Assembly: GCA_949152475.1 (NCBI GenBank)
Contig: OX424563.1
Coordinates: 3,073,001-3,137,000 of the forward strand
DNA: 64,000 bases
DNA from: Terebella lapidaria
Taxonomy: Eukaryota; Annelida; Polychaeta; Terebellida; Terebellidae
Direction of reading: 5' to 3'
Shown here: piece after piece, positions 20,369-49,671 of the stretch
Layout: every line of letters begins with the position of its first letter
Numbering within the stretch: position 1 is the first letter of the stretch
Made by a program: the position numbers and the translations under genes
Notes under the pieces: generated by a model
Database searches by the model: none
What the model was told of the DNA's origin: nothing
What the model saw: the letters and a program-made list of their open reading frames with translations, nothing else

Positions 20369-20372
20369 TTAA

Positions 20373-25780: not shown

Positions 25781-25782
25781 CA

Positions 25783-26975
25783 GGTTGTATATCCTCATGA
25801 CGTTTTTCAAGGTTGTATATCCTCATGACATTTTTCAAGGTTGTATATCCTCATGACCTTTTTCAAGGTTGTATATCCTCATGACCTTTCAAGGTTGTAT
25901 ATCCTCATGACCCTTTTCAAGGTTGTATATCCTCATGACCTTTTTCAAGGTTGTATATCCTCATGACCTTTTTCAAGGTTGTATATCCTGACCTTTGAAG
26001 GTTGTATATCCTCATGACCTTTGAAGGTTGTATATCCTCATGACCTTTCAAGGTTGTATATCCTCATGACCCTTTTCAAGGTTGTATATCCTCATGACCT
26101 TTTCAAGGTTGTATATCCTCATGACCTTTTTCAAGGTTGTATATCCTCTTGACCTTTTTCAAGGTTGAAAATCCTCATGACCTTTTTCCAGGTTGTATAT
26201 AATTTTGACCTTTATCAAGGTTGTATATCCTCATGACCTATTCAAGGCTGTATATCCTCATGACCTTTTTCAAGGTTGTACATCCTCATGACCTTTTTCA
26301 AGGTTGTATATCCTCATGACCTTTTTCAAGGTTGTATATCCTCTTGACCTTTTCCAAGGTTGTATATCCTCATGATCTTTTTCCAGGTTGTGTATCATCT
26401 TGACCTTTTTCAAGGTTGTATATCCTCATGACCTTTTCAAGGCTGTATATCCTCATGACCTTTTTCAAGGTTGTACATCCTCATGACCTTTTTCAAGGTT
26501 GTATATCCTCATGACCGACATTTTCAAGGTTGTATATCCTCATGACCTTTCAAGGTTGTATATCCTCATGACCTTTCAAAGTTGTATATCCTCATGACCT
26601 TTTTCAAGGTTGTATATCCTCATGACCCTTTTCAAGGTTGTATATCCTCATGACCTTTTTCAAGGTTGTATATCCTCATGACCTTTTCCAAGGCTGTATA
26701 TCCTCGTGACCTTTTCCAAGGTTGTACATCCTCATGACCTTTTTCAAGGTTGTATATCCTCATGACCGACCTTTTCAAGGTTGTATATCCTCATGACCTT
26801 TTCATGGTTGTATATCCTCATGACCGACCTTTTCAAGGTTGTATATCCTCATGACCTTTTCAAGGTTGTACATCCTCATGGCCCTTTTCAAGGTTGTATA
26901 TCCTCATGGCCCTTTTTCAAGTTTGTATATCCTCATGACCTTTTTCAAGGTTTTATATCCTGATGACCAACTCAA
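25783..26975. repeat. 28 bp minisatellite (about 42 copies)
   Basis: The unit is close to AAGGTTGTATATCCTCATG followed by ACCTTTTTC. Copies vary in T-run length and have scattered substitutions, and four carry a GACCGACC-type or ACCGACA expansion. The array ends about 160 bp before the CAAAAC duplication of the large composite element, so it lies outside that element. Confidence 0.9.
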
Positions 26976-27131: not shown

Positions 27132-27137
27132 CAAAAC
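27132..27137. repeat. Target-site duplication CAAAAC, left
   Basis: CAAAAC lies directly before the left inverted terminus TACGGCGG. The identical six bases follow the right terminus at 48581-48586. Confidence 0.85.
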
Positions 27138-27239
27138 TACGGCGGCCCAATGCTGCCATTATTCATGCCTGAGTTAAGAGTAGTTTTGAAATCAGTTTCA
27201 TAGTTAGTAAACAGTTATTTTCAGTTATGAAACTAGTTT

Positions 27240-28567
27240 CTAGCAAGGCACAAACCCTTTACACCCGGCACAAACGTTTTTAGCAGGGTGCAAACCTTTC
27301 TAGCATGGCGCAAACCTTTCTGGCACGGCACAAACCTTTATAACAGGGCATCAACCTTTATAACACGGCACAAACCTTTTTAACTTGGCGCAAACCTTTT
27401 TAGCACGGCACAAACCTTTTTAGCATGGCACAAACCTTTATAACACGGCACAAACCTTTATAGCAGGGCACAAACCTTTTTAACATGGCGCAAACCTTTA
27501 TAACAGGGCACAAACCTTTTTAACACGGCACAAACCTTTTTAACACGGCACAAACCTTTATAGCAGGGCATAAACCTTTATAACACGGCACAAACCTTTT
27601 TAACTTGGCGCAAACCTTTTTAGCACGGCACAAACCTTTTTAGCATGGCACAAACCTTCATAACACGGCACAAACCTTTATAGCAGGGCGCAAACCTTTT
27701 TAACATAGCGCAAACCTTTATAACAGGGCATCAACCTTTATAACACGGCACAAACCTTTTTAACTTGGCGCAAACCTTTTTAGCACGGCACAAACCTTTT
27801 TAGCATGGCACAAACCTTCATAACACGGCACAAACCTTTATAGCAGGGCGCAAACCTTTTTAACATAGCGCAAACCTTTATAACAGGGCACAAACCTTTT
27901 TAACACGGCACAAACCTTTATAGCAGGGCATAAACCTTTATAACACGGCACAAAGTTTTTTAACTTGGCACAAACCTTTTTAGCACGGCACAAACCTTTA
28001 TAGCAGGGCATAAATCTTTATAACACGGCACAAACCTTTATAGCAGGGCGCAAACCTTTTTAACATGGCGCAAACCTTTATAACATGGCACAAACCTTTA
28101 TAACAGGGCACAAACCTTTTTAACACGGCACAAACCTTTATAGCAGGGCACAAACCTTTATAACAGGGCGCAAACCTTTTTAACATGGCGCAAACCTTTT
28201 TAGCATGGCACAAACCTTTATAACACGGCACAAACCTTTATAGCAGGGCGCAAACCTTTTTAACATGGCGCAAACCTTTATAACAGGGCACAAACCTTTA
28301 TAACAGGGCACAAACCTTTTTAACACGGCACAAACCTTTATAGCAGGGCACAAACCTTTATAACAGGGCGCAAACCTTTTTAACATGGCGCAAACCTTTA
28401 TAACAAGGCACAAACCTTTTCAACAAGGCACAAACCTTTATAGCAGGGCATAAAACTTTTTAACACAGCACAAACCTTTATAACAGGGCCTAAATCTTTA
28501 TAACGGGGCACAAACCTTTTTAGCACGGCGCAAACCTATATAGCAGGGCCCAAACCTTTATAACAGA
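27240..28567. repeat. 20 bp minisatellite, left arm (about 66 copies)
   Basis: The unit is approximately AACACGGCACAAACCTTTTT, with ATA/TTT and ACACGG/GCAGGG/ACATGG variants. Mixed variants recur in blocks (for example near 27380, 27600 and 27760), suggesting small higher-order amplification. The array is inverted relative to 47225-48480. Frames translating to CYKGLC-type repeats are not genes. Confidence 0.92.
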
Positions 28568-28729
28568 GTAGGTTTGAAACTAGACGTCAAGGCCTGAAGA
28601 TGCCTTGGGGCATTTCGTGTGAGTTCTATTCCTACCTAACATTTACCTAAGAGACCGCGTAGAACCATAATGACTGAATCTGTCCGTGGTCAAAGTTTAA
28701 GTGACATACCCCGTCCTTAGGCATTTTTG
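28568..28729. other. Junction between the two left satellites
   Basis: A unique-looking junction contains GTTTGAAACTAGACGTCAAG and GATGCCTTGGGGCATTTCG. The reverse complement of this junction also closes the diverged relic at about 57690-57742, which helped define the family's original order. Confidence 0.6.
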
Positions 28730-31700
28730 CGTTTCGCTCTACGACGGACCGTTTCTGAGATATGGCAAACAGGAAGTGCTGAGTCGGCAAAAAAAAATTC
28801 GACACCAGAAGTCGTTTCGACGCAAGATACCCTCTAGACTAGTTAGTCTAGTGCCAGGAGGTCGGAATTGAGCTCCGTTTCGCTCTACGACACACCATTT
28901 CCGAGATACGGCCAAACAGGAAGTGCCGAGTCGGCGAAAAAAAAATTCGACACCAGGGGTCGTCTCGACCCAAGATACACACTAGACTAGTTTGTCTAGT
29001 GCCAAAAGGCCGAAATTGAGCTCCGTTTCGCTCTACGACGCACCGTTTCCGAGATACGGCCAAACAGGAAGTGCCGAGTCGGCAAAAAAAAAATTCGACA
29101 CCAGGGGTCGTCTCGACCGAAGATACACACTAGACTAGTTTTTCTAGTGCCAGGAGGCCGAAATTGAGCTCCGTTTCCCTCTACGACGCACCGTTTCCGA
29201 GATACGGCCAAACAGGAAGTGCCGAGTCGGCGAAAAAAAAAATCGACACCAGGGGTCGTTTCGACCCAAGATACCCCCTAGACTAGTTTGTCTAGTGCCA
29301 GGAGGCCGAAATTGAGCTCCGTTTCTCTCTACGACGCACCGTTTCCGAGATACGGCCAAACAGGAAGTGCCGAGTCGGCGAAAAAAAAATTCGACACTAG
29401 GGGTCGTCTCGACCCCAGATACACACTAGACTAGATTGTCTAGTGCCAAAAGGCCGAAATTGAGCTCCGTTTCACTCTACGACGCACCGTTTCCGAGATA
29501 CGGCCAAACAGGAAGTGCCGAGTCGGCGAAAAAAAATTCGACACCAGGGGTCGTCTCGACCGAAGATACACACTAGACTAGTTTGTCTAGTGCCAGGAGG
29601 CCGAAATTGAGCTCCGTTTCGCTCTACGACGCACCGTTTCCGAGATACGGCCAAACAGGAAGTGCTGAGTCGGCGAAAAAAAAAATCGACACCAGGGGTC
29701 GTCTCGACCCCAGATACACACTAGACTAGTTTGTCTAGTGCCAGAAGGCCGAAATTGAGCTCCGTTTCACTCTACGACACACCGTTTCCGAGATACGGCC
29801 AAACAGGAAGTGCCGAGTCGGCGAAAAAAAAATTCGACACCAGGGGTCGTCTCGACTCAAGATACACACTAGACTAGTTTGTCTAGTGCCAGGAGGCCGA
29901 AATTGAGCTCCGTTTCGCTCTACGACGCAACGTTTCCGAGATACGGCCAAACAGGAAGTGCCGAGTCGACGAAAAAAAAATTCGACACCAGGGGTCGTCT
30001 CGACCCAAGATACACACTAGACTAGTTTGTCTAGTGCCAGGAGGCCGAAATTGAGCTCCGTTTCGCTCTATGACGCACCGTTTCCGAGATACGGCCAAAC
30101 AGGAAGTGCCGAGTCGGCGAAAAAAAAAATCGACACCAGGGGTCGTTTCGACCCAAGATACCCCCTAGACTAGTTTGTCTAGTGCCAGAAGGCCGAAATT
30201 GAGCTCCGTTTCGCTCTACGACGTACCGTTTCCGAGATACGGCCAAACAGGAAGTGCCGAGTCGGCGAAAAAAAAAATTCGACACCAGGGGTCGTCTCGA
30301 CCCAAGATACACACTAGACTAGTTTGTCTAGTGCCAAAAGGCCGAAATTGAGCTCCGTTTCGCTCTACGACGCACCGTTTCCGAGATACGGCCAAACAGG
30401 AAGTGCCGAGTCGGCAAAAAAAAAATTCGACACCAGGGGTCGTCTCGACCGAAGATACACACTAGACTAGTTTTTCTAGTGCCAGGAGGCCGAAATTGAG
30501 CTCCGTTTCCCTCTACGACGCACCGTTTCCGAGATACGGCCAAACAGGAAGTGCCGAGTCGGCGAAAAAAAAAATCGACACCAGGGGTCGTTTCGACCCA
30601 AGATACCCCCTAGACTAGTTTGTCTAGTGCCAGGAGGCCGAAATTGAGCTCCGTTTCTCTCTACGACGCACCGTTTCCGAGATACGGCCAAACAGGAAGT
30701 GCCGAGTCGGCGAAAAAAAAATTCGACACTAGGGGTCGTCTCGACCCCAGATACACACTAGACTAGATTGTCTAGTGCCAAAAGGCCGAAATTGAGCTCC
30801 GTTTCACTCTACGACGCACCGTTTCCGAGATACGGCCAAACAGGAAGTGCCGAGTCGGCGAAAAAAAATTCGACACCAGGGGTCGTCTCGACCGAAGATA
30901 CACACTAGACTAGTTTGTCTAGTGCCAGGAGGCCGAAATTGAGCTCCGTTTCGCTCTACGACGCACCGTTTCCGAGATACGGCCAAACAGGAAGTGCTGA
31001 GTCGGCGAAAAAAAAAATCGACACCAGGGGTCGTCTCGACCCCAGATACACACTAGACTAGTTTGTCTAGTGCCAGAAGGCCGAAATTGAGCTCCGTTTC
31101 ACTCTACGACACACCGTTTCCGAGATACGGCCAAACAGGAAGTGCCGAGTCGGCGAAAAAAAAATTCGACACCAGGGGTCGTCTCGACCCAAGATACACA
31201 CTAGACTAGTTTGTCTAGTGCCAGGAGGCCGAAATTGAGCTCCGTTTCGCTCTACGACGCAACGTTTCCGAGATACGGCCAAACAGGAAGTGCCGAGTCG
31301 ACGAAAAAAAAATTCGACACCAGGGGTCGTCTCGACCCAAGATACACACTAGACTAGTTTGTCTAGTGCCAGGAGGCCGAAATTGAGCTCCGTTTCGCTC
31401 TATGACGCACCGTTTCCGAGATACGGCCAAACAGGAAGTGCCGAGTCGGCGAAAAAAAAAATCGACACCAGGGGTCGTTTCGACCCAAGATACCCCCTAG
31501 ACTAGTTTGTCTAGTGCCAGAAGGCCGAAATTGAGCTCCGTTTCGCTCTACGACGTACCGTTTCCGAGATACGGCCAAACAGGAAGTGCCGAGTCGGCGA
31601 AAAAAAAAATCGACACCAGGGGTCGTTTCAACCCAAGATACACACTAGACTAGTTTGTCTGGTGCCAAAAGGCCGAAATTGAGCTCCGTTTCGCTCTACG

Positions 31701-32050
31701 ACGCACCGTTTCCGAGATACAGCCAAACAGGAAGTGCCGAGTCGGCGAAAAAAAAGTTTGACACCAGGGGACGTCTCGACCGAAGATACACACTAGACTA
31801 GTTTGTCTAGTGCCACGAGGCCGAAATTGAGCTCCGTTTCGCTCTACGACATACCGTTTCCGAGATACGGCCAAACAGGAAGTGCCGAGTCGGCGAAAAA
31901 AAAAATCGACACCAGGGGTCGTTTTGACCCATGATACACACTAGACTAGTTTGTCTAGTGCCAGGAGGCCGAAATTGAGCTCCGATTCGCTCTACGACAT
32001 ACCGTTTCCGAGATACGGCCAAACAGGAAGTGCCGAGTCGGCGAAAAAAA
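28730..32050. repeat. 148 bp satellite (about 22 copies) with 9-unit higher-order repeat
   Basis: Each unit contains GAGCTCCGTTTCGCTCTACG, CACCGTTTCCGAGATACGGC, CGAGTCGGCG plus a short A-run, GACACCAGGGGTCGTCTCGA and the hairpin CACTAGACTAGTTTGTCTAGTG read as two halves. Variants repeat with a period of 1332 bp (9 x 148), for example 28996/30328, 29472/30804 and 30031/31363. The minus-strand frames (MAVSRKRCVVER...) recur at this period and are not genes. Confidence 0.93.
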
Positions 32051-32278
32051 CAAGGGCCACTGGCCTCATAGGAAGAGCTTTGAAAATGTTTGCACAGAAC
32101 TAGTTCAAAACCCTCGAATACTGTATCCTATTCGGTACATATATGTTGTGGCCATATTGTAACTGTAGCCCATGATATTGTACCAACTGGCCAATCATTT
32201 GCTTATTGTTTGAATTGGCCTAATATAAAATTGATTGATACCATCATTAAGGTACTGTTTCCATCTGCTCCCATCTTC

Positions 32279-34438
32279 CAAACTAGATGTTTTCCAGTCG
32301 CTGACGACTGCTGGAATGTATCTCCCGTAGCCCTATCACCCCCTTCCAACACCCCCCCCCCCCCCCCAAACTATTAATAGATTCAACTTTTCACTGCGGG
32401 GCGGGATCAAACAAATGTTAACCTATTCGGTTACAGTCATGAAATATGTATTGGACACAACCTTTACCTTATTGTGCCCAAAAGTAAATGTTTTATGTTT
32501 TAACTAAATTTACTGTGGTCAATAATAGACCTAATTAGTATTCACCCATCGGTTTATTTTTTATCTCCATCAGTAGACATGTTATATGTCCAAACTACAC
32601 AGCTCAGAATGCCACATGACGATTCCCATGCAACCAATAATAGTGGTGTAGCAATCACAGGCCTATCTGATCATACATGACATTCAACAGATGGCGCTCT
32701 TGCAGCATGCAGTAGGCCCCTACAGGAAAGTTGTGCGGTTCATTATGATGAGAACTGTCATTTTGTGATAAATGTGATGATGTGATTGTTGCATTACGAA
32801 CTCGACTGGCGATTTTTGCTTTGATCATTGTATCCCCCGAACAAAGTTCGGCGGATACTATGGATTTACGATCGTCGCGCCGCCGCCGCCGCCGCCGCCG
32901 CGTCCGCGTCCGCGTCCACGTCCGCAGACACTTTCTTGTGAACGCGCTGCAGGTTGCAAATATGAACCGATTTTGATAATATTTTATATGGACATGTGTT
33001 ATGGTGAGATCTGGACACCTATCGATTTTGGTTGCCATAGCAACCAAAATAGCCGATTGGCGTAACATTTTGTGCTCAAATTAGCCTGTTTAACACACAT
33101 GGGTTGTGAACGCTCTACGGGTGGGAGTTTTCAATGAATGATGATGAAATCGCACAGGCTCAATGAGAAAGACCATCACACGAAACCTATTGTTTTTCAG
33201 AATGATCGAATAAATATTAATAAGTTGGAGAGGTTAACTTATTACGACAATTAAAATACCTACTTTGACATGTGTGATCACTCCAATAACCTGTACTAGG
33301 AAAGCAAATTGCACTGGATTCTTGTTCAGAATACAGAACTGATGTTTTTGGTGAAAAAAGAACAATATTACTGAATAAGTTAACATTGGTTTTACTAGTT
33401 AAGTCTATTATTGACCACAATAAAAATAGTTAAGACGAGAAACATTTATTATTGAGCTCAACAAGGTAAAGGTTTTGTCCAGTAGAGACTTCACAGGTGT
33501 AACCGAATAAGTTAACATTATTTTTACTAGTTAAGTCTATTATTGGCCACAATAAAAATAGTTAAGACAAGAAACATTTATTATTGGGCTCAACAAGGTA
33601 AAGCTTCTGTGCAGTAGAGATTTCATGGCTGTAGCCGAATAAGTTAACATCAGTTTTACTAGTTAAGTCTATTATTGACCTCAAGAAAAATAGTTAAGAC
33701 AAGAAACATTTATTATTGAACTCAACAATTTAAAAGTTTTGTCCAGTAGAGATTTCATGGGTGTAACCGGATAAGTTAACATTATTTTTACCAGTAAAGT
33801 CAATTTTTACTTCGAATTTCAACTTGGAACCAAGTTTGGCACATATTATGAATTAAAATATAATTTATGGTGAAAAGATTGATCTGGCTCCAATTTCGTC
33901 ATCTTGAAATGCAGTTTTGGTAAACTTTTACTTGAATTTCAGCTTGAAACCAAGTTTGGCACATATTATGAATTAAAATTTAAATTATGGTGAAAAGTTG
34001 ATCTGGCTCCAATTTCGTCATCTTGAAATGTAGTTTTGGTCAACTTTTACTTTGAATTTCAACTTGGAACATAGTATGAGTTGTTTGGCACATAGTATGA
34101 GTTGAAATATAACTTACAGTGAAAAGTTCGATCTGGCTCCAATTTAGTCATCTCGCAACTTAGTTGCGAACCAAGTTTGCCAAATATTCTGAGTTGAAAT
34201 ATAGCTTTAGGTGAAAACTTTTATCTGGCTGTAATTTCGTTATTTTTTTCGAACATGTCGAAATGGAAATTCGAATGCAGTGATTTTAGTGGTGATCTTG
34301 AATTCGACCTTCAATACATGTAAGTCTGAAAGGTTTCACTATCACAATGTACATCAGCGATATATTTGGGGCAACAGGGATGATAGGGCTACGGGGGATA
34401 CACCCAAGCGGTCGTAGGCGACCGGAAGCGTCTAGTTT
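32279..34438. mobile_element. Inner inverted-repeat element with two tandem arrays
   Basis: Ends of about 60 bp are inverted: AAACTAGATG...CCCGTAGCCCTATCACCC on the left and GATGATAGGGCTACGGG...GTCTAGTTT on the right. Inside are roughly three units of about 145 bp (33365-33810, with GAATAAGTTAACATT and TTAAGTCTATTATTG) and three to four units of about 125 bp (33800-34250, with GATCTGGCTCCAATTTCGTC). A (GCC)n-rich stretch lies at 32878-32905, next to CCCCGAACAAAGTTCGG. No gene; the 137-residue minus frame at 32655-33068 is driven by the GC run. Confidence 0.65.
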
Positions 34439-35342
34439 GTGTATGATTCTAGTAACCTAATTACTAGTAACCTATCATGCACAAAATAATCGAGTGCTTG
34501 AAACATGACTCAACCAACAAATCACCGATTTTAAAAGATGGTTGATAAGCTATGATCAATTGATTTATTTTTGTATTAAGTGCTGCAGTATCTCGTGATG
34601 TCATCTCATTAATTATTCATTAGGCTATGAGGCACGCTCACCCAACGAACAGCGATGTTTAGGTGGAAGAGGAGGGGGGAAGCATCGTGAAGAAAGTGAA
34701 CTTGTTGTCATCGGCATATATGATCTCTCGAGGTGGATCATATTACTGAAATGCATCAGTAATCGCCGATTGCGATCTTGCAGATAGTTTAGCGATATAT
34801 TCATGCGAGAAAACTCATCGGACCATTCAGCAGACCTGATTTTTACCCGGGTGCGGGCCAGCTTTCATTTATCACGATTGGGTCGTAGTCAGACGTCTTC
34901 ACGCGGATGGGTGATTTGTTGGCTGTGGTGCGGGACGGGGATGAAGCGGGTCGAGTGTGGCTGGCTGCCTCGCTAGGGGGGGGGGGGGGGGGGGGCACAC
35001 TTATTTGCATTTGGCCTACTGGACATACCAGCACTTGCCACAAGTTTTCATTTATTATGTTGCCGTATCAAGCCGTTTTTCCGTTTTTGCAATAGCTTAT
35101 GTACTATCTATGTAGTGTGGAATGTTTATGCAAAATTTTGAGTGCATCTGATACAAGAAAGCCCTGTTTCAGAGAAGATCAAAACGGGAGTGGTGATGGG
35201 TGATGAAACGGTGACACACAAAAAAAAATAAACGGTCGGAACACACGTCTCCTGTGGCTAATATTGCTTATAACTTAGGTAGGTAGTTCATGGTAAGCTG
35301 ACGCGAAATTAGCTCCCACGAAATCTTATCCAGTGCAATTTT
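34439..35342. other. No gene seen; left end of the inner inverted structure
   Basis: There is a G-run at 34977-34994. From about 35270, TTCATGGTAAG and CGCGAAATT match inverted words near 46500-46520, which suggests that the terminal repeat of the inner structure extends beyond its minisatellite. Confidence 0.4.
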
Positions 35343-37465
35343 ATGCGACGGCCATGCGGCGGTCCGTCAGAGCCACCCTGTAGCGTCGCTTCACACTGTT
35401 TCTGTTTATGTGACGGGCAAGTGACGGTCCGTCGGATAGCCGTTGTAGCGCCACATAAGAACATTTCTCTTTCTCCAAGTGACGGCCAAGTGACGGTCCG
35501 TCACATGGACGTTATAGCGCCACATAAGAATTTTTCCCTTTCTCCAAGTGACGGGCAAGTGACGGTCCGTCGGATAGCCGTTGTAGCGCCACATAAGAAT
35601 TTTTTTCTTTCTCCAAGTGACGGCCAAGTGACGGTCCGTCACATGGACCTTATAGCGCCACATAAGAATTTCTCCCATTCTCCAAGTGACGACCAAGCGA
35701 CGGTCCGTCACATGGACGATATAGCGCCACATAAGAATTTTTCCCTTCCTCCAAGTGACGGGCAAGTGACGGTCCGTCAGATAGCCGTTGTAGCGCCACA
35801 TGAGAATTTTTTTCTTTCTCCAAGTGACGGCCAAGTGACGGTCCGTCACATGGACATTATAGCGCCACATAAGAATTTTTCCCTTTCTCCAAGTGACCTG
35901 CAAATGACGGTCCGTCAGATAGCCCTTGTAGAGCCACATAAGAAATTTTCTCTTTCTCCAAGTGACGGGCAAGCGACGGTCCGTCAGATAGACGTTATAG
36001 CGCCACATAAGAATTTTTCCCTTTCTCCAAGTGACGACCAAGCGACGGTCCGTCAGATAGCCCTTGTAGCGCCACATAACAACATTTCTCTGTCTCCAAG
36101 TGACGGGCAAGTGACCGTCAGATAGGCCTTGGAGCGCCACATAGCCATATTTTCCTTTCCCCAAGCGACGGTCCGTCAGATAGCCCTTGTGGCGCCACAT
36201 AAGAATATTTCTCTGTCTCCAAGTGACGGGCAAGTGACCGTCAGATAGGCCTTGGAGCGCCACATAGGGAAATTACCCTTTCTCCAAGTGACGGGCAAGT
36301 GACGGTCCGTCACATAGACGTTATAGCGCCACATAAGAATTTTTCCCTTTCTCCAAGTGACGACCAAGCGACGGTCCGTCGGATAGCCCTTGTAGCGCCA
36401 CATAAACAATTTCTCTTTCTCCAAGTGACGGCCAATTGACGGTCCGTCACATGGACATTATAGCGCCACATAGCAATATTTCCCTGCCCCAAGTGACGGG
36501 CAAGCGACGGTCCGTCACATAGACGTTATAGCGCCGCATAGCAATAATTCCCTTCCCCAAGTGATGGGCAAGTGACGGTCAGATAGCCCTTGTAGCGCCA
36601 CATAAACAATTTCTCTTTCTCCAAGTGACGGGCAAGTGACCGTCAGATAGGCCTTGTAGCGCCACATAGCAAGATTACCCTCTCTGCAAGTGACGGGGAA
36701 GTGACGGTCCGTCACATAGCCCTTGAAGCGCCACATAAGAATATTTTCTCTGCCCAAGCGACCAACAAGTGACGGTCCGTCAGATGACCCTTGTAGCGCC
36801 ACATAAGAACATTTCTCTTTCTCCAAGTGACGGGCAAGTGACCGTCAGATAGTCCTTGGAGCGCCACATAGCCATATTTCCCTTTCCCCAAGCGACGAGC
36901 AAGCGACGGTCCGTCAGATAGCCCTTGTAGCGCCACATAAGAATATTCCTCTGTCTCCAAGTGACGGGCAAGTGACCATTAGATAGGCCTTGGAGCGCCA
37001 CACAGCCATATTTCCCTTTCCCCAAGCGACGAGCAAGCGACGGTCCGTCAGATAGCCCTTGTAGCGCCACATAAGAATATTCCTCTGCCTCCAAGTGATG
37101 GGCAAGTGACCATCAGATAGGCCTTGAAGCACCACATAGCAAGATTACCCTTTCTCCAAGTGACGAGCAAGCGACGGTCCGTCAGATAGACCTTATAGCG
37201 CCACATAGCCAAATTTCCATTTCCCCAAGCGACGAGCAAGTGACGGTCCGTCACATAGCCCTTGTAGCGCCACATAAGAACATTTGTCTTCCTCCAAGTG
37301 ACGTGCAAGTCACCTTCAGATAGGCCTTGGAGCACCACATACCAAGATTAGCCTATCTCTAAGCGACGGGCAAGTGACGGTCCGTCAGATAGACGTTATA
37401 GCGCCACAAAAGATTTCTCCCCTTTCTCCAAGTGACGGGCAAGTGACGGCCCGTCAGATAGAGCT
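35343..37465. repeat. 69 bp minisatellite, left arm (about 31 copies)
   Basis: Units contain GTGACGGTCCGTCAGATAG, then TTGTAGCGCCACATAAGAA and TTTCTCCAAGTGACGGGCAA. The 69 bp period is a multiple of three, so long frames stay open on both strands (35343-36125 plus, 35406-36263 minus) without being genes. Inverted copies lie at 45190-46460. Confidence 0.9.
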
Positions 37466-38756
37466 GATACCCCCACATGAAAAACACTATTAACTTTGAA
37501 AACTGGACAATTTCTGATGCATTGGGACATATGTCCGGAAATCAAATGAATATTTTGAGAAATAAATCTCTGCGTACATTGGGTGAGAACAAGTATTGTT
37601 TTCCTTGTGGACCTTTGATATCAGTAACATCAAACAATGACAAGCATTTCAAAGCAATATCCGACCAAATGATAATGATCCCAACATTGGCACTGATTGT
37701 GCTTTAGATATAAACATCATAGAAGATGCTTATATTGTCAGTTATATGCAATTAGTGGATACTGCTGTCACAGATGACTTGGCTGATAAGCCTGAGACAA
37801 AAGACAATGGGGTTTATACAAACAGTGACATCAGACATGGGCCCGGGTGTTAATCAGCAATGTTCTTTCATTGTGGTGAAAAAGTAGCACCCCAATATTT
37901 CTACACATATTAAGGGGCATTTGACTGCCATATTTTAACTTGTTGGAATAAAACTTTGACTAGTCAAAGACATGTTCATTTATTCCTCAATATTATTCAT
38001 TTTGGGCAATGGTTAATGATATCATGCTATACTTTCCTGGCAATCACATCACTGAATGTTGTTACTTTTCTGCAAAATCTATCAGTTCTAGGTAATTAAC
38101 TACTGTCGTTGCTGTAGGGGCTGAAATGTATGCAATATTTATTTGTATATGTAAATCAAATGACACATTGGAGTAGTGAAAGTAATGACTCCATCACAAA
38201 TATTCTTAGTTAGAGCAGAAAAATGCTTTCACGCATATCCATTGCCATTTGTTTTCAACTTACCCCCGGTACTGACACAAGTGTTAATGCAATGAACTAG
38301 TAAAACCAATGTGGTCTTAATCATCAATAATTTTCCAGTTACCATGGTAACCGTGGTAACAGCAGACCTATATTTCTAGACATATCCAGTGTCATTCGTT
38401 TTCAAACAACTGGCACATATTCTAACTTGTTGGAATAAAGACGTTTACCAGTAAAGGTAATGTTCAGCTATATCATTCCATTGTAACCAATGGTAACTGG
38501 TATCATGTCATACTTTCCTTTCAGTGGCATCACTGATTGTTGTTATTCTTTTGACAAATTTAGCAGTAGCAATTAATGAACACTTTCGGGTTACAATTGT
38601 TGCAATTTATCATGTTTATCTGTATATGTAAATAAAATAACACACTGAAGTAGTAAAGGCAATGTTAACTAAATCAGCAATATTCTTTCAGTTCGAGCGA
38701 CCTATTTAGGATACCATTTCTTTGTACATAAAATAACACACTGAACTTGCAAAAGT
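37223..38756. repeat. 1534 bp direct duplication, copy 1
   Basis: This segment repeats at 38760-40293 with an offset of 1537 bp and no difference that I can see. It begins inside the 69 bp minisatellite (CCCCAAGCGACGAGCAAGTG) and ends AACTTGCAAAAGT. It includes the low-copy segment with GACCTTTGATATCAGTAACA and stretches related to the array that follows. Confidence 0.9.
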
Positions 38757-38759
38757 TCA

Positions 38760-40293
38760 CCCCAAGCGACGAGCAAGTGACGGTCCGTCACATAGCCCTT
38801 GTAGCGCCACATAAGAACATTTGTCTTCCTCCAAGTGACGTGCAAGTCACCTTCAGATAGGCCTTGGAGCACCACATACCAAGATTAGCCTATCTCTAAG
38901 CGACGGGCAAGTGACGGTCCGTCAGATAGACGTTATAGCGCCACAAAAGATTTCTCCCCTTTCTCCAAGTGACGGGCAAGTGACGGCCCGTCAGATAGAG
39001 CTGATACCCCCACATGAAAAACACTATTAACTTTGAAAACTGGACAATTTCTGATGCATTGGGACATATGTCCGGAAATCAAATGAATATTTTGAGAAAT
39101 AAATCTCTGCGTACATTGGGTGAGAACAAGTATTGTTTTCCTTGTGGACCTTTGATATCAGTAACATCAAACAATGACAAGCATTTCAAAGCAATATCCG
39201 ACCAAATGATAATGATCCCAACATTGGCACTGATTGTGCTTTAGATATAAACATCATAGAAGATGCTTATATTGTCAGTTATATGCAATTAGTGGATACT
39301 GCTGTCACAGATGACTTGGCTGATAAGCCTGAGACAAAAGACAATGGGGTTTATACAAACAGTGACATCAGACATGGGCCCGGGTGTTAATCAGCAATGT
39401 TCTTTCATTGTGGTGAAAAAGTAGCACCCCAATATTTCTACACATATTAAGGGGCATTTGACTGCCATATTTTAACTTGTTGGAATAAAACTTTGACTAG
39501 TCAAAGACATGTTCATTTATTCCTCAATATTATTCATTTTGGGCAATGGTTAATGATATCATGCTATACTTTCCTGGCAATCACATCACTGAATGTTGTT
39601 ACTTTTCTGCAAAATCTATCAGTTCTAGGTAATTAACTACTGTCGTTGCTGTAGGGGCTGAAATGTATGCAATATTTATTTGTATATGTAAATCAAATGA
39701 CACATTGGAGTAGTGAAAGTAATGACTCCATCACAAATATTCTTAGTTAGAGCAGAAAAATGCTTTCACGCATATCCATTGCCATTTGTTTTCAACTTAC
39801 CCCCGGTACTGACACAAGTGTTAATGCAATGAACTAGTAAAACCAATGTGGTCTTAATCATCAATAATTTTCCAGTTACCATGGTAACCGTGGTAACAGC
39901 AGACCTATATTTCTAGACATATCCAGTGTCATTCGTTTTCAAACAACTGGCACATATTCTAACTTGTTGGAATAAAGACGTTTACCAGTAAAGGTAATGT
40001 TCAGCTATATCATTCCATTGTAACCAATGGTAACTGGTATCATGTCATACTTTCCTTTCAGTGGCATCACTGATTGTTGTTATTCTTTTGACAAATTTAG
40101 CAGTAGCAATTAATGAACACTTTCGGGTTACAATTGTTGCAATTTATCATGTTTATCTGTATATGTAAATAAAATAACACACTGAAGTAGTAAAGGCAAT
40201 GTTAACTAAATCAGCAATATTCTTTCAGTTCGAGCGACCTATTTAGGATACCATTTCTTTGTACATAAAATAACACACTGAACTTGCAAAAGT
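38760..40293. repeat. 1534 bp direct duplication, copy 2
   Basis: Copy 2 of the segment at 37223-38756, separated by three bases. The identical 76-residue frames (37477-37707 and 39014-39244) show the identity. Part of the segment (about 37480-37855) occurs again, inverted and diverged, at 44815-45215. Confidence 0.9.
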
Positions 40294-42012
40294 GATGTTA
40301 ACTTAATCAGCAATATTCTTCCAGTTAGAGCACACCTATATATTATGTACCATATAAATGGTGACTGTTTTGGAGGGGAACATGGCAAAATGTTCCCTCG
40401 AGGAGACAATGTTACCGGAGGCGAAGCCGAGGTTAACATTGCCTTTGAGGGGGAACATTTCCTGACAAACGAGTGACCATTTATTTTATTATACCGAATG
40501 TCACTGATTTTATCATGACGTTATACACATATCTGCATATGTACCTTCAAAGTCATTGTTGAAGTCGACAATTTTCTAAAGTCTTCGACGGCAGCGGTAA
40601 ACTGAATCAGCAATATTCTTCTAGTTAGAGCAAACCAATATGATACACAATTTCTTTGTACAAGTAAATAAAACAATGCACTGATTTGGTAAAAGTAATG
40701 TTAACTTAAATACATGTAACACTATTCTTCCAGATAGAGCAAACCTACATAGTATGTAGAATTTATTTGTACAAGTAAATGAAGGAAAGCACTGAAGTGA
40801 TAAAACTAATGTTAACATGATCAGTAATATTCTTCCAATTAGAGCAAACCTACATATTATATAGAACTTATTTGTACCAGTAAAGAAACTAACACACTGA
40901 ACTAATAAAATTAAGTTTAACTTAATCAGCAATATTCTTCAGTTAGAGCGAAGCCACGTAATATATAGAATTTATTTGTACAAGTAAATGAACTAACGTA
41001 CTGAAGTAATAACAGTAATGTTAACTTAATGAGCAATATTCTTCCTGGTAGGGCAAACCTACATAGTATTTAGAATTTATTTGTACAAGTAAATAAACTA
41101 ACGCACTGAACTAATATAACTAATATATAATATATATAATAATAACTAATATTAACTTAATCAGTAATATTCTTCCAGTTATAGCAAACCTACATGGTAT
41201 ATAGAATTTATTTGTACATGATGTACAAGTGAATAAACTAGAACACTGAACTAATAAAACTAATGTTAACTTAATCAGCGAAATTCTTCCAGTTAGAGAA
41301 AACCTACATAGCATATAGATTTTATTTGAACAAGTAAATGAAGTAATGCACTAAACTAATAAAACTACTGTTAATTTATTCAGCAATATTCTTCCAGTTC
41401 GAGCAAACCTATACATAATATATAGAATTAATTTGTACAATAAATAAGCCAGCACACTGAACTAATAAAACTAATGTTAACATGATCAGCAATATTCTTC
41501 CAGTTAGAGCAAACCTATATAATATGTACAATTTTGTGTTCAAGTAAATAAATTAATACACTGAAGAAATCACTGAATAAAGCTAATTCTAACTTAATCA
41601 GCACAATTCTTCCAGTTAGAGCAAACCTACATAGTATATAGAATTTATTTGTACAAGTAAATAAACTAACGCACTGAACTAATAACACTAATGTTAACAT
41701 AATCAGCAATATTCTTCCAGTTAGAGCAAACCTATATAATATGTACAATTTTGTGTTCAAGTAAATAAATTAACACACTGAACCAATAACTGAATAAAGC
41801 TAATTTTAACTTAATCAGCACAATTCTTCCAGTTAGTGCAAACCTACATAGTATATAGAATTTATTGTACAAGTAAATAAACTAACGCTCTGAACTAATA
41901 ACACTAATGTTAACTTAATTAGCAATATTCTTCCAGTTAGAGCAAACCTACATATAATATAGATTTTATTTGAAGAAGTAAATAAAGTAATGCACTCAAC
42001 TAATAATTTTGT

Positions 42013-42043
<31 letters not shown>

Positions 42044-43795
42044 AAAACTACTGTTAACTTATTCAGCAATATTCTTCCAGTTGGAGCAAACCTATACATA
42101 GTATATAGAATTAATTTGTACAATGAATAAGCCAGCACCCTGAACTAATAAAAATAATGTTAATATGATCAACGGTATTCTTCCAGTTAGAGTAAACCTA
42201 TATAATATGTACAATTTTGTGTTCAAGTAAATAAATTAACACACTGAACCAATAACTGAATAAAGCTAATGTTAACTTAATCAGCACAATTCTTCCAGTT
42301 AGAGCGAACCTACATAGTATATAGAATTTATTTGTACAAGTAGATAAACTAACGCACTGAACTAATAAAACTAAGGTTAACTTAATCAGCAATATTCTTC
42401 CAGTTAGAGCAAACCTACATATTATATAGAACTTATCTGTACCAGTAAATAAACTAACGCACTGAACTTATAAAACTAAGGTTAACTTAATCAGCAATAT
42501 TCTTCCAGTTAAGCAAAGCTACGTAATACGTAGAATTTATTTGCACTTGTAAATGAACTAACGCACTGAAGTAATAACAGTAATGTTAACTTAATGAGCA
42601 ATATTCTTCCAGACAGGGCAGACCTACATAGTATATAGAATTTATTTGTACAAGTAAATAAACTAACGCACTGAACTAATATAACTAATGTTAACTTAAT
42701 CAGTAATATTCTTCCAGTTATAGCAAACCTACATGGTATATAGAATTTATTTGTACAAGTAAATAAACCAGCACACTGAACTAATAAAACTAATGTTAAC
42801 TTAATCAGCAAAATTCTTCCAGTTAGAGCAAACCTACATAGCATATAGAATTTATTTGAAGAAGTAAATAAAGTAATGCACTAAACTAATAAAACTACTG
42901 TTAACTTATTCAGCAATATTCTTCCAGTTGGAGCAAACCTAAACATAGTATATAGAATTAATTTGTACAATAAATAAGCCAGCACACTGAAGTAATAAAA
43001 CTAATGTTAACATGATCAGCAATATTCTTCCAGTTAGAGCAAACCTATATAATATGTACAATTTTGTGTTCAAGTAAATAAATTAAAACACTGAACCAAT
43101 AACTGAATAACGCTAATGTTAACTTAATCAGCACTATTCTTCCAGTTAGAGCAAACCTACATAGTATATAGAATTTATTTGTACAAGTAAATAAACTAAC
43201 TCATTGAACTAATAACACTAATGTTAACTTAATTAGCAATATTCTTCCAGTTAGAGAAAACCTATATCATGTATATAGTGATCAGCACTATTCTACCAGT
43301 TACAGCAAACCTACATATTATATAGAACTTATTTGTACCAGTAAATAAACTAGTGCACTGAACTGATAAAACTAAGGTTATCATGATCAGCAATATTGTT
43401 CCAGTTAGAGCAAACCTATATAATATGTACAATTATTTTGTTCAAGTAAATAAATTAACACACTGAACCAATAAAGCTGATGTTAACTTAATCAGCACTA
43501 TTCTTCCATTTAGAGCAAACCTACATAGTATATAGAATTTATTTGTACAAGTAAATAAACTAATGCACTGAATTAATAAAACTCATGTTAACATGATCAG
43601 CAATATTCTTCCAGTTTGAGCAAACCTATATAGTATATAAAATTTTTTGTACAAGTAAATAAACTAACACACTGAAGTAGTAAAACTAATGTTGACTTAA
43701 TCAGCAATATTCTTCCACTTGGAGCAAATCTACATAGTATGTACAATTAATTTGTACAAGTAAATAAACTAACACACTGAACTCATAAAACTAAT
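40294..43795. repeat. Array of about 107 bp units (about 32 copies), one-sided
   Basis: Units contain CAGCAATATTCTTCCAGTTA, GAGCAAACCTACATAGTATA, TAGAATTTATTTGTACAAGT and AATAAACTAACGCACTGAAC. Variants alternate (TATATAATATGTACAATTTT units), which suggests a two- or three-unit higher-order pattern. There is an (ATT)n run at about 42010-42040. A foldback (40355-40490) sits in the first units. There is no inverted counterpart on the other side. Confidence 0.88.
40355..40490. mobile_element. Short foldback within the 107 bp array
   Basis: Left words AAATGGTGACTGTTTTG, GGGGAACATG and GACAATGTTACC pair with GGTTAACATTGCC, GGGGGAACATTT and CAAACGAGTGACCATTT. The apex is GGAGGCGAAGCCGAGG, the same style as the hairpin at 10100-10243. 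Confidence 0.6.
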
Positions 43796-44814
43796 GTTAA
43801 AGTGATATTGGCAGAAAGTTATGGACTTTGCCATACCTTTCTGATCGAAGGAAAAAACATACAGTTTTATATCTGCACTTGTATGGCCAAAGAGATGCCC
43901 ATTTGTAATTGATTTCATTGCGAGTTTCTGGTGGAGACAGTTTGGGCTGATCATGAATTCCAGTGATGATTGCATTTCTGATTCTTCTGATGTTATACTA
44001 GGCAACAAAGTTCCTTTGATTGTCTTTAAAGTTCAGATCATGGATTACAAAATGGAACTGTTTGTAACACATGTACATGTATGGTTACATTTCTCAATCA
44101 TTGAAAACTTCATTTCAACATGCAACTTCGAATAAGTGGAGGGACAGTCCAAAAAAGAAACACATATCGAAGCACACTTTCAACACTGAGATACATGTAT
44201 ATCTATTGCATTCTGATGACCTCTGTGAATGGGAAGTATTGCAAAAGATATGATAATGATATTGGGAGTTCCCACCAAGACAGAACTGTCTGAATGTAGA
44301 TACTGTAAAAAGACTAATTTTGGCAGCTATTACATTTGGCGGTTGTGTGCCCCACGTTATTTGGCGGATATTTAATATGGCGGTTTCAAAACCATATATA
44401 TTTCTTAACATGTGTCTACTTAATTTGGCGGACGATTTAATTTCACGGTTTTTCCTCTACTGCCAAATCCGCCAAATAAATCGTCCGCCAATATTATTCG
44501 TTTTACAGTATTAATTCCTTGACAGAGAAACAGACCCCACGGATGAAAGTTATTATTCTGAAAAACAGACCCCATGGATGAAAATTATTGTCCTATAGTA
44601 AACATGATGCAGAATCACAATTTGGCCATCTGACATGTACATGTATACTGTACCCTTCTCAATATTATCATCATTGTCTTTGAAAATCCACCTGAAGTGC
44701 CCTTGTCCTCCACGCCACCAGTGCAACACTGATGTCCTGCATTCTATATCATCTGTGCATGTTCCCCCCCCCCCCCACCCCCCTCCCCCTTTCCCCTCCC
44801 CCTCACCCTAGCTC
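43796..44814. other. Gene-free interval of the large element, contains a MITE
   Basis: No exon is recognised. A MITE lies at 44301-44510. Two copies of an AACAGACCCCATGGATGAAA-type repeat lie near 44530 and 44565. A C-rich run is at 44764-44812. Confidence 0.45.
44301..44510. mobile_element. MITE with TACTGTAAAA ends
   Basis: TACTGTAAAAAGACTAATTT on the left is inverted as AATATTATTCGTTTTACAGTA on the right (21 bases in the sequence, read here as two overlapping words). TA is the probable duplication. TTTGGCGG/CCGCCAAAT words repeat inside. It is about 206 bp and non-coding. Confidence 0.75.
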
Positions 44815-45215
44815 ACCCTCTGGGCCCATGTCTGATGTCACTGTTTGTATAAACCCCAGTCTCTTTCGTCCTAGGCTTATCAGCCAAGTCATCTGTGACA
44901 GCAGTATCCACTAATTGCATATGACTTGTGACTAAAATCTTCTATGATGTTTATATCTAAAGCACAATCAGTGCCAATGTTAGGGTCATTATCATGTGGT
45001 GAGATATTGGTTTGAATTGCATGTCATTGTTTGATGTTCCTGATATCAAAGGTCCACAAGGAAAACAATAGTTGCTTCTAACCGGATCCCATGCATTTTG
45101 AATATGTACACAGAGATAACATTTATTTCTCATCAAATATTCATTTGATTTCAGACAATACGTCTTAATGCATCAGGGATTGTGCAGTGTTCACCACTTA
45201 TAGCGTGTTTTTCAT
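44815..45215. repeat. Inverted, diverged copy of the low-copy segment
   Basis: The reverse complement matches 37480-37855 over long words such as TATTGTTTTCCTTGTGGACC and TTGGCACTGATTGTGCTTTA. There are many substitutions and small indels, so it is older than the direct duplication. Confidence 0.8.
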
Positions 45216-46460
45216 GTGGCACTATATCATCTATCTCACGGACAGTCACTTGCTCATCACTTGGGGAAGAGAAATCCTGCTGTGTGGCGCTTTTTGCCCA
45301 TCACTTGCTGAAGGAATATATTGCTATGTTGCGCTATAATGTTTTATCTGACGAACTGTCGCTTGCTCATCACTTGGCGAAGGGAATTATTGCTATGCGG
45401 CGCTCTAATATCTATCTGACGGACCGTCACTTGCCCGTCACTTGGGGAAGGGAATTATTGCTATGCGGCGCTATAACATCCATGTGACGAACCGTCGCTT
45501 GCCCGTCACTTGGGGCAGGGAAATATTGCTATGCGGCGCTATAACGTCTATCTGACGGACCGTCGCTTGCCCGTCACTTGGGGCAGGGAAATATTGCTAT
45601 GTGGCGCTATAATGTCCATGTGACGGACCGTCACTTGCCCGTCACTTGGAGAAAGGTGAATATTGCTATGTGGCGCTATAACGTACATCTGACGGAGAAA
45701 TTGTTTATGTGGCGCTACAAGGACTATCTGACGGTCACTTGCTCGTCACATGGAGGTAGAGAAATGTTCTTATGTGGCGCTACAAGGGCTATCTGACGGA
45801 CCGTCGCTTGCTCGTCACTTGGGGAAAGGGAAATATGGTCACTTGGAGAAAGGGTAATTTTGCTATGTGGCGCTCCAAGGCCTATCTGACGGTCACTTGC
45901 CCGTCACTTGAAGACAGAGAAATATTCTTATGTGGCGCTACAAGGGCTATCTGACGGACCGTCGCTTGCTCGTCGCTTGGGGAAAGGGAAATATGGCTAT
46001 GTGGCCCTCCAAGGCCTATCTGACGGACACTTGCCCGTCGCTTGCCCGTCACTTTGAGACAGAGAAATATTCTTATGTGGCGCTACAAGGGCTATCTGAC
46101 GGACCGTCACTTGCCCATCACTTGGAGAAAGGGAAAAATTCTTATGTGGCGCTATAACGTCCATGTGACGGACCGTCACTTGGCCGTCACTTGGAGATAA
46201 AAAAATTCTCATGTGGCGCTACAACGGCTATCTGACGGACCGTCACTTGCCCGTCACTTGGAGAAAGGGAAAAATTCTTATGTGGCGCTATAATGTCCAT
46301 GTGACGGACCGTCACTTGGCCGTCACTTGGAGAAAGAGAAATGTTCTTATGTGGCGCTACAAGGTCTATCTGACGGACCGTCGCTTGCTCGTCACATGGG
46401 GAGAGTCATAGCTATGTGGCGCTATAAGGTCTATCTGACGGATCGTCGCATGGGCGTCAC
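45216..46460. repeat. 69 bp minisatellite, right arm (inverted, about 18 copies)
   Basis: Units read CTGACGGACCGTCACTTGCC, CGTCACTTGGAGAAAGGGAA and TTATGTGGCGCTACAAGG, the reverse complement of the left arm. After the last unit, words near 46470-46520 remain inverted relative to 35270-35340. Confidence 0.88.
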
Positions 46461-46722
46461 ATACAATTCCAAGAAAGTGGATGAGGAGAAATAAAAATTT
46501 CGCGGGTTCTTACCATGAAAGGGTAACCATAACTTATGACAGTAACCATACTTGGGTACACGGGTGTCATATTCTTTCCAACTGGCCCCAGGCCCTCCTA
46601 ATTAGCCACAATTGAATGGTTTGCTCTGGCTCCAAGTCGGACTTTCAAAAATGTAAACAAAGGAAAATTCTCCAAAATCCAAAAAAAAACTAACATCATA
46701 GAGGAAGAGCTCTGCTCTTCCT

Positions 46723-46840
46723 AAAAATCGACACCAGGGGTCGTTTCGACCCAAGATACCCCCTAGACTAGTTTGTCTAATGCCAGGAGGCCGAAATTGA
46801 GCTCCGTTTCGCTCTACGACACACCGTTTCCGAGATATGC
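46723..46840. repeat. Single resumed 148 bp satellite unit
   Basis: ATCGACACCAGGGGTCGTTT through CACACCGTTTCCGAGATATG matches the satellite at 28.7-32.05 kb in the same orientation. This shows that the array once continued across the 14.7 kb insertion. Confidence 0.85.
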
Positions 46841-47224
46841 AAGAAAGCCTCAAGGATGAATCAGCAAAAATTCTTCTGAGCTCTAGGTCAAAGGTCGTTC
46901 GACGGAGTGATCCCAAAATCAATAGGGTTCTTCCTTGGTGGTATATGAACTCCCATGCAGAGAATACTTGCCATTGCATGAATACTTTTTGAGTTATCGA
47001 TCGGGAACCAAGTCTCAAAATCAACCTTGATTTCATCCTCACGGACCTCACGGACCCCGGAGCCACCTCCAAAACAATAGGGGACTTCCATGTAATATTT
47101 CTGACCAGTGGTGTAAATTTGGACAAGATCCGTTCAGGCGTTCCCGAGTTATTGATCGGAAACCAAAACGACGGAAAAAAAAAAAAAAGTTTCCTAATTA
47201 GTATGCAGTTTTTTTCAGTTATGA
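46841..47224. other. Unique right segment of the outer element
   Basis: It contains repeated GAGTTATCGATCGG/GAGTTATTGATCGG words and GGTCAAAGGTCGTTCGACGG. Its reverse complement matches 56640-56810 (GGTTCATATGCCACCAGGGA-like versus GAGTTCATATACCACCAAGG), linking the two loci. The 212-residue minus frame over it has no recognisable domain. Confidence 0.6.
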
Positions 47225-48480
47225 AACTAGTTTCTAGCATGACACAAACCTATCTATCACAGCACAAACCTTTACAACATGAGGTTTGTGCCATGCTACA
47301 AAGGTTTGTGCCATGCTACAAAGGTTTGTGCCGTGTTAAAAAGGTTTTTGTCATGTTATAAAGGTTTGTTCCTTGTTATAATGGTTTGTGCCGTGTTAGA
47401 AAGGTTTATGCCCTGCTATAAAGGTTTGTGCCGTGTTGAAAAGGTTTGTGCCTTGTTATAAAGGTTTGTGCCGTGTTGAAAAGGTTTGTGCCTTGTTATA
47501 AAGGTTTGCGCCATGTTAAAAAGGTTTGCTCCCTGCTATAAAGGTTTGTGCCCTGCTATAAAGGTTTGTGCCGTGCTAAAAAGGTTTGTGCCCTGCTATA
47601 AAGGTTTGTGCCGTGTTAAAAAGGTTTGTGCCCTGCTATAAAGGTTTGTGCCGTGCTAAAAAGGTTTGTGCCGTGTTGAAAAGGTTTGCGCCCCGTTATA
47701 AAGGTTTGTGCCATCTTAAAAAGGTTTGTGAAGTGTTATAAAGGTTTATGCCCTGCTAAAAAGGTTTGCGCCAAGTTAAAAAGGTTTGTGCCGTGTTATA
47801 AAGGTTTGTGCCGTGTTATAAAGGTTTATGCCCTGCTATAAAGGTTTGTGCCGTGTTAAAAAGGTTTGTGCCCTGCTATAAAGGTTTGTGCCGTGTTAAA
47901 AAGGTTTGCGCCCCGCTATAAAGGTTTGTGCCATGTTATAAAGGTTTATGCCCTGCTATAAAGGTTTGTGCTGTGTTAAAAAGGTTTGTGCCCTGCTATA
48001 AAGGTTTGTGCCGTGTTAAAAAGGTTTGTGCCCTGCTATAAAGGTTTGTGCCCTGTTATAAAGGTTTGCGCCATGTTAAAAAGGTTTGCGCCCTGCTATA
48101 AAGGTTTGTGCCGTGTTATAAAGGTTTGTGCCATGCTAAAAAGGTTTGTGCCGTGCTAAAAAGGTTTGCGCCAAGTTAAAAAGGTTTGTGCCGTGTTATA
48201 AAGGTTTATGCCCTGCTATAAAGGTTTGTGCCATGTTAAAAAGGTTTGCGCCCTGCTATAAAGGTTTGTGCCTTGTTATAAAGGTTTGTGCCATGCTAAA
48301 AAGGTTTGTGCCATGCTAAAAAGGTTTGCGCCAAGTTAAAAAGGTTTGTGCCGTGTTATAAAGGTTTATGCCCTGTTATAAAGTTTGTGCCGTCCTAGAA
48401 AGGTTTGCGCCATGCTAGAAAGGTTTGCACCCTGCTAAAAACGTTTGTGCCGGGTGTAAAGGGTTAGTGCCTTGCTAGAA
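47225..48480. repeat. 20 bp minisatellite, right arm (inverted, about 62 copies)
   Basis: The unit is AAAGGTTTGTGCCGTGTTAA and variants, the reverse complement of 27240-28567. It ends with CGTTTGTGCCGGGTGTAAAG and the shared terminal sequence. Confidence 0.92.
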
Positions 48481-48580
48481 ACTAGTTTCATAACTGAAAA
48501 TAACTGTTTACTAACTATGAAACTGATTTCAAAACTACTCTTAACTCAGGCATGAATAATGGCAGCATTGGGCCGCCGTA

Positions 48581-48586
48581 CAAAAC
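48581..48586. repeat. Target-site duplication CAAAAC, right
   Basis: It follows the right terminus GGGCCGCCGTA directly and is identical to 27132-27137. Confidence 0.85.
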
Positions 48587-49622
48587 TGATAGAGGGTTTA
48601 TCTGCAACAGCTTAGACATTGAACTTTATTTTCTGAATGGTTTTACCTCAAAATTTTGTATTCAGAAAGTAAATGACCATTTTGTATGTCACATATGACT
48701 GCTTGGACCCTACAAGTAATTTACTTGATGAATTCTAGTACCTACATATAGTCATAAATCCTGTTAGTGAATAGCTTACATGTACTTCATCACACACTCA
48801 CAAAGTGCCTTTCCCACATTTTTCAGGATATGATTTTTGGCGGGATTTTAAAGCAAATTACCTACTAACCAACCAGAGTTCGAGTGCAGTTTCTCGATTA
48901 GATGATTTGTAAAACTAGTCGTTAGTAAAACAAGCAATTTCTATACATGTCTGGTGATACAGAGAAATGGGCATTAATGTTTCAATATGACTGAGGCCAA
49001 GTTCGAGGTCATCAAACGATCCATCACATCTGTTATGTATGTAAGTTGCACTACTGTAGTTCAAGGGCTGTATTTGTGATTGGATGCTGATCATTTTGTA
49101 GAGTACAATCATTGCTTGCGGTAGTAAGTTGCACTACTGTTGTGTATGGCCTGTACATGTATTTGTGATTAGATGATGATCATTTTGTAGAATACAATCA
49201 TTGCTTGCGGTAGTAAGTTGCACTACTGTTGTGTATGGACTGTACATGTATTTGTGATTAGATGATGATCATTTTGTAGAGTACAATCACTGCTTGCAGT
49301 AGTAAATTGCACTACTGTTGTGTATGGGCGTGATTAGATGATGATCATTTTGTAGAGTACAATGATCATTTTGTAGAATAAAGTTGTTTGTAACATGATA
49401 AAAGTGTCAGTTTTGTTCATTGTCTGATCATGGATATGTATTGATGCATAAATTCATAAACGAAATGTATCATTGTATATACCCCTGCTCATCTGCTGAA
49501 ATAAAAGTTTTAATATTTGTAAAAGTCATTCACTTTGCTAATAAGCGGTGATCCGAGTCTGTGTTCTATCGAAAATTAATTTGATAACACAGGTAATAAT
49601 ACAACACTTCACATGTACAGCA
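48587..49622. other. No gene seen; short tandem repeat at 49020-49390
   Basis: Three to four units of about 100 bp share AGTAAGTTGCACTACTGT, TGATGATCATTTTGTAGA and TACAATCATTGCTTGCGG. The rest is AT-rich and without a recognised exon. Confidence 0.55.
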
Positions 49623-49628
49623 TTTATT
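49623..49628 (-). promoter_or_regulatory. Polyadenylation signal of PBDC1
   Basis: AATAAA on the minus strand, about 45 bases past the PBDC1 stop codon. It is the only such hexamer close downstream. Confidence 0.6.
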
Positions 49629-49671
49629 TACACAATATACAACTCCAATAAAAGGTTTCACTGAACGACTG

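Follow-up and report, generated by a model that had tools for sequence, protein, structure and literature searches.

A 21.4-kb insertion with IS3EU-type ends and minisatellite foldback arms in Terebella lapidaria

Within a 64,000-nucleotide stretch of the Terebella lapidaria genome (the window), we identified a 21,443-bp insertion (E1; 27138–48580) that begins with TACGG, ends with CCGTA and has inverted termini (TACGGCGGCCCAATGCTGCC). The insertion is of transposon type and duplicates 6 bp of its target; an independent element of the same design (E3; 5654–8032) lies in the same window. From their sequences, both fit best among non-autonomous foldbacks with ends of the IS3EU type, as follows from those ends together with the foldback architecture of the arms; they are candidate rather than proven members of IS3EU. 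We think it likely that E1 is a non-autonomous IS3EU-type foldback that was moved in trans and was enlarged by nesting.

The target-site duplication, CAAAAC, lies at 27132–27137 on the left and at 48581–48586 on the right, identical at 6 of 6 bases. Inside it, the left arm (27138–28566, plus strand) consists of the TACGG terminus, a 114-bp exact tip and then a 20-bp minisatellite, and the right arm (47282–48580, minus strand) holds the minisatellite in inverted orientation, with CCGTA at its end. When one arm is inverted, the 114-bp tips are identical and the terminal 20 bases match at 20 of 20 positions; over their first 260 bp, the arms differ five times (four mismatches and one gap). A preliminary description of this site had claimed a transposon-type element with an exact CAAAAC duplication and inverted termini nearly identical for about 190 bp. 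Our analysis upholds that reading and reproduces its outer coordinates (27132–48586) exactly. Reading 7 bp (CAAAACT on both sides) is also possible and makes the element asymmetric; we prefer 6 bp because symmetric TA..TA ends result from that reading only.

Satellite arrays are hard to assemble, and an exact 1534-bp tandem copy within E1 (see below) could be a duplicated haplotype segment, so E1 could in principle be an assembly artefact, or else a chance inverted arrangement of two minisatellites. We regard this as very improbable. Against it, the non-satellite tips stand in an exact 114-bp match, the two outer junctions bear the same 6-bp duplication, and E3 repeats the design independently. 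The terminal 20-mer was found at only two sites in the whole window at up to three mismatches, both of them ends of E1 (mean of 0.00 occurrences in 100 shuffles), and none of 20 dinucleotide shuffles of the window gave an exact 6-bp duplication with termini matching at 17 or more of 20 bases (best, 16). Because the 20-mer is unique to these ends and the shuffles fall short, we take the observation to be real and not due to chance.

E3 is 2379 bp long, runs from TATGG to CCATA with termini that match at 20 of 20 bases, and is flanked by an exact duplication, GGATAT (5648–5653 and 8033–8038). Degenerate 14-bp repeats lie within its long inverted arms, which can be aligned for about 400 bp and also contain a second, internal end motif. 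Beyond the TAYGG signature, its ends and repeats bear no likeness to those of E1; the two have in common the length of the duplication and the repeat-bearing arms. We met the TAYGG..CCRTA signature in the literature only after both elements had been found. There are 2749 TAYGG..CCRTA pairs spaced 60–30,000 bp apart in the window, and only E1 and E3 combine a 6/6 duplication with 20/20 termini. Two further pairs that passed a loose filter were dropped (termini 12/20, duplication 5/6).

Other scans of the window singled out the same elements. The first scan for 6-bp duplications, run with neither a filter on terminal bases nor masking of arrays, yielded 425 pairs in which the 6-bp repeats are exact and the termini match at 15 or more of 20 bases; in the best 40 of these, everything except E1 and E3 falls within arms or satellites or is a palindromic 6-mer in a longer inverted repeat. 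Boundary filtering, with tandem-array pairs dropped, left 154 inverted pairs, each neighbouring offset counting as a pair of its own. E1 and E3 have the only exact 6-bp duplications among them, and the other exact duplications (3 bp twice, 4 bp three times and 8 bp once) reflect other elements or chance. TA..TA pairs with a 6-bp duplication at no more than one mismatch numbered 12; after three in tandem arrays were masked, the nine left were E1, E3, a probable nested element (E2, described below), 54354–54988 and five weaker pairs. We set aside 46884–56771, which joins two dispersed repeat segments, as well as 24775–51878, 9264–21196, 12174–12446 and 57810–58122, with termini of 15–16/20. The pair at 54354–54988 (one mismatch in the duplication) was dropped as a fourth such element because its palindromic GCCGGC appears, by eye, to belong to a longer inverted repeat. 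The inverted-repeat element at this locus is rich in GC and carries internal end motifs and an 11-bp tandem; it seems to extend beyond the boundary that a 6-bp duplication would give it.

The window holds several other repeats and one probable host gene sequence. A 1651-bp inverted-repeat element flanked by a TAA duplication (1821–3471), which we take to be Harbinger-like, interrupts a Gypsy-like retroelement on the minus strand (3–5166; reverse transcriptase at 3412–5166, RNase H and integrase at 3–1835). A 414-bp element at 53511–53924 (TAGGGCCC..GGGCCCTA) with an exact 8-bp duplication (AATTTTTG) is presumably a hAT-like MITE. Long inverted repeats also characterize an element of about 1.1 kb with TTAA at its borders (19285–20372), and a 432-bp inverted-repeat element (58633–59064) with TA ends is flanked by a 4-bp duplication, CACT. 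A minisatellite with a 28-bp unit repeated about 43 times (25782–26968) stops about 170 bp before E1; matches of its last part include no inverted partner. A terminal-like motif, TACGAGCCATCCGT, occurs at 52237, 53176 and 61463 (one with one mismatch), two of the occurrences being inverted relative to the first and none having matching duplications. A minus-strand open reading frame with EF-hand domains at 11449–11862 appears calmodulin-like by eye and is probably host gene sequence.

IS3EU is a known but little-studied type of transposon. The superfamily has been described as having TA..TA termini and, usually, 6-bp duplications (PMC10045372), and one set of rust-fungus IS3EU families has 6-bp duplications and TAYGG..CCRTA ends (PMC12730594). 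The ends of E1 (TACGG..CCGTA) and of E3 (TATGG..CCATA) are both of this form, and the duplications of both are exact at 6 bp, with the 7-bp alternative for CAAAAC noted above. E1 thus resembles IS3EU and GingerRoot elements in its TA..TA and, specifically, TAYGG..CCRTA ends and in the length of its duplication. It differs from them in having no recognized transposase gene and in its long minisatellite foldback arms, a feature that the matched passages on IS3EU do not describe. By its long inverted arms with internal tandem repeats and no recognized coding sequence, E1, as a single copy, has the characters of a foldback element.

The lack of a transposase, already remarked in the preliminary description, was borne out by a protein-domain search of open reading frames read from stop to stop. 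E1 contains 40 of these of at least 60 amino acids, mostly outside its main satellite arrays, and 4 are repeats within the exact duplication; none of the 36 distinct frames has a Pfam match above the curated cut-off. As no transposase was found, it is the termini and the duplication length that place E1 with IS3EU. Exact-pattern searches of viral contigs gave no match to the E1 terminal 20-mer or a subterminal 29-mer, pattern searches of viral contigs gave none to the 148-bp satellite, the E3 terminus or the E2 repeat, and prokaryote contigs contained no match to a degenerate 39-base arm pattern; these contigs are not eukaryotic, and the results carry little weight.

E1 might instead descend from another superfamily with duplications of about 6 bp (Polinton/Maverick, Dada or an unusual MULE foldback), an origin that we consider unlikely. 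Polinton/Maverick elements carry integrase, polymerase B and capsid-type genes. Their duplications are described as 6 bp long, as in E1, but the 36 open reading frames scanned contain no Polinton-type domains, a search in which a gene-less derivative would not show. Dada duplications, at 6–7 bp, are also of suitable length. In the passages available on this group, Dada-U6 and Dada-U1 are said to lack terminal inverted repeats, and those Dada elements whose termini can be defined are located in small RNA genes, whereas E1 and E3 have long inverted repeats and the window yielded no RNA gene (no Rfam matches and no tRNAs). Mutator is the superfamily in which most foldbacks have been placed, including Tetris of Drosophila virilis (PMC4079207). 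Tetris resembles E1 in being non-coding and in having long inverted arms with tandem repeats and a variable middle, but it is described with duplications of 8–10 bp, one of the grounds for its assignment to Mutator, in contrast to the 6 bp of E1 and E3. The TAYGG ends of both elements fit the description of IS3EU.

Precedents for the arms and for a tie between satellites and IS3EU come from other systems. Galileo, of the P superfamily, likewise has long, internally repetitive inverted repeats; its arms are described as variable in length, its copies as exchanging sequence, and the tandem repeats in its inverted repeats have been proposed to act as secondary transposase sites (PMC3573991). It differs from E1 in its P-type transposase family and in its tandem repeats, described as about 210 bp in two or three copies, compared with about 60 copies of 20 bp. 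The oyster satellites CgiSat35 and CgiSat47 have been annotated as DNA/IS3EU (PMC8268682), and one half of a Tribolium repeat is reported to be 86% similar to an IS3EU element (PMC5844308), so that a link between satellites and IS3EU has precedent. The comparison of the oyster satellites with E1 is by annotation, and the passages on them describe no foldback element. Among the matches listed (titles, abstract openings and passages), none reports an IS3EU foldback, which is not proof of absence.

The minisatellite arms of E1 bear on how its age can be read. Tandem Repeats Finder counts 65.9 copies of the 20-bp unit in the left arm (27247–28565) and 59.5 in the right (47282–48471); the more than 60 copies per arm given in the preliminary description therefore hold on the left and narrowly fail on the right. 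Aligned from the tips, the arms match at 100, 96 and 98 positions in the first three 100-column blocks, then at 47–96 per 100 columns, with unit-sized gaps, until column 1400, and hardly at all beyond; identity is 87% across 1300 aligned columns. Both arms are mosaics. Exact common blocks of 117, 112 and 112 bp sit at non-equivalent depths, the left arm contains an exact internal repeat of 158 bp shifted by eight units, and 13 unit strings are common to both arms, each of which was parsed into 26 distinct ones.

This pattern makes block duplication or exchange between the arms likely, and the near-identity of the tips is therefore weak evidence for the date of insertion. Block turnover or conversion can hold parts of the arms alike at any insertion age. 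The preliminary description took the near-identical ends to indicate recent mobility; with exact blocks at non-equivalent depths in mosaic arms, this is not supported as stated, and the tips alone are no proof of a recent move of the full 21 kb. A remnant of the subterminal segment of the left arm (matching 27194–27279 at 81%) lies directly inside the right arm, at 47188–47273 (plus strand), as though two outer-element copies had joined.

Tandem arrays make up about 62% of E1 (13,314/21,443 bp) and are spread over several nested layers. The arrays are thus abundant, as the preliminary description held, although its phrase 'built almost only from satellites' is too strong. Between the arms we recognized a cassette (K) in which a boundary segment is followed by a 148-bp satellite and then by one further segment. 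Its left part, at 28573–32050 (plus strand), contains the boundary segment and the satellite array (28730–32050); its right part, at 46723–47025 (plus strand), starts with a remnant of one 148-bp unit (up to 97% identical to the array) and continues into the further segment. An unsplit copy of K, diverged and inverted, lies in the right flank (56641–57741, minus strand). The boundary segment (28573–28623) is 90% identical to 57741–57690 and the right segment (46756–47025) is 75% identical to 56899–56641, in the same order as in the flank copy.

The 148-bp array breaks off at about 32049–32050, within a poly-A stretch of a satellite unit, and restarts in phase at 46723. As the flank copy is collinear and unsplit and the array resumes in phase, we infer that K is split by an insert of about 14.7 kb (32051–46722, ends uncertain by a few bases) and that the interior of E1 is nested; the outer foldback would measure about 6.8 kb without the insert. 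A single 21.4-kb mobile unit of satellites, as proposed in the preliminary description, is not supported in that form, since K is split by an insert that itself holds a probable second element. For the 115-bp piece that follows the split, identity is 97.4% to the closest unit of the array and averages 93.5%, against unit averages of 88.4–95.7% within the array. In the array, 16 of 22 units have a nearest neighbour at 100%, which would count against a recent split. The three units nearest the break have nearest neighbours at only 93.9–96.5%, so the piece resembles a unit from the edge of the array. A hairpin-like motif, GGAAGAGC, is found near both the left and the right end of the insert, and inspection of these ends by eye revealed no clear transposon type.

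Inside the insert is a probable second foldback element, E2 (35342–46463; TATGCGACGG..CGTCACATA, with the end on the far side reading TATGTGACGC), which has inverted arms of a 69-bp minisatellite. Its putative duplications are CAATTT (35336–35341) and CAATTC (46464–46469), alike at 5/6 bases, and their AATT core is partly ambiguous with an inverted repeat. TA..TA ends and TATG are present, but the ends read TATGC and TATGT and so depart from TAYGG, at the fifth base at one end and in the fourth-to-fifth context at the other. The scan behind the 154 inverted pairs described above called for an exact terminal seed of 8 bases, which is why E2 is missing from them. Identity between the non-satellite inverted segments of E2 is 82.6%, for which reason E2 looks older than the outer insertion, although its arms may have differed from birth. 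E2 also contains a satellite array with a period of about 105/217 bp (40596–43806, plus strand) and the exact tandem duplication mentioned above (37223–40293, plus strand), the two 1534-bp copies of which (37223–38756 and 38760–40293) are 100% identical and are either very recent or an assembly artefact.

Two histories could produce this arrangement, and both are compatible with an IS3EU origin. Given the nested interior, the original insertion may have been a smaller outer element that then grew in place. Alternatively, the whole 21.4 kb may have moved as a unit, carrying K, the insert and E2 with it, if the outermost ends, belonging either to two foldback copies or to a single swollen element, acted together; this reading competes only with growth in place, and we hold it to be possible but rather doubtful. 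The exact outer tips (114 bp) and 6/6 duplication at the outermost ends, together with the older look of E2 (82.6% identity, 5/6 duplication), favour movement of the full block, and the left-arm remnant inside the right arm would fit the joining of two copies. Large DNA segments lying between foldback elements have also been reported to move in Drosophila (PMC6431247). Against this, a short exact duplication dates an insertion poorly, conversion can keep tips alike, and the arms of E2 may have been unequal from the start. K occurs outside E1 as well and need not be cargo. Because K is dispersed and nesting is easy, we lean slightly towards growth in place.

On the reading that we prefer, a non-autonomous foldback enlarged by nesting, E1 was probably mobilized in trans by a DDE transposase of the IS3EU/GingerRoot type encoded elsewhere. 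Such an enzyme would recognize the TAYGG..CCRTA tips and insert the element through a 6-bp staggered cut, which the tips and duplication of E1 would reflect. The minisatellite arms, given their mosaic structure, may then have grown by block duplication, by exchange from arm to arm or by both, and their repeats may supply extra transposase sites, by analogy with the proposal for Galileo. The size of 21.4 kb would result from nesting, in which an outer element with its 148-bp satellite cassette, of about 6.8 kb together, was split by the 14.7-kb insert that carries the probable E2.

Foldbacks have mostly been placed with Mutator, with exceptions that include Galileo. The presence in one 64-kb window of E1 and E3, with IS3EU-type ends and the same arm design, suggests that another superfamily takes the foldback route, and the two elements provide a concrete tie between dispersed satellite DNA and one superfamily of transposons. 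More speculatively, and in our view somewhat improbably, IS3EU-type elements in this genome may repeatedly and independently turn into foldbacks whose arms are built from different minisatellites (units of 20 bp in E1, of 14 bp in E3 and of 69 bp in the probable E2). If so, the transposase or the products of its repair would create tandem arms and could mobilize composite blocks of more than 20 kb, and IS3EU elements would be a general source of dispersed satellites.
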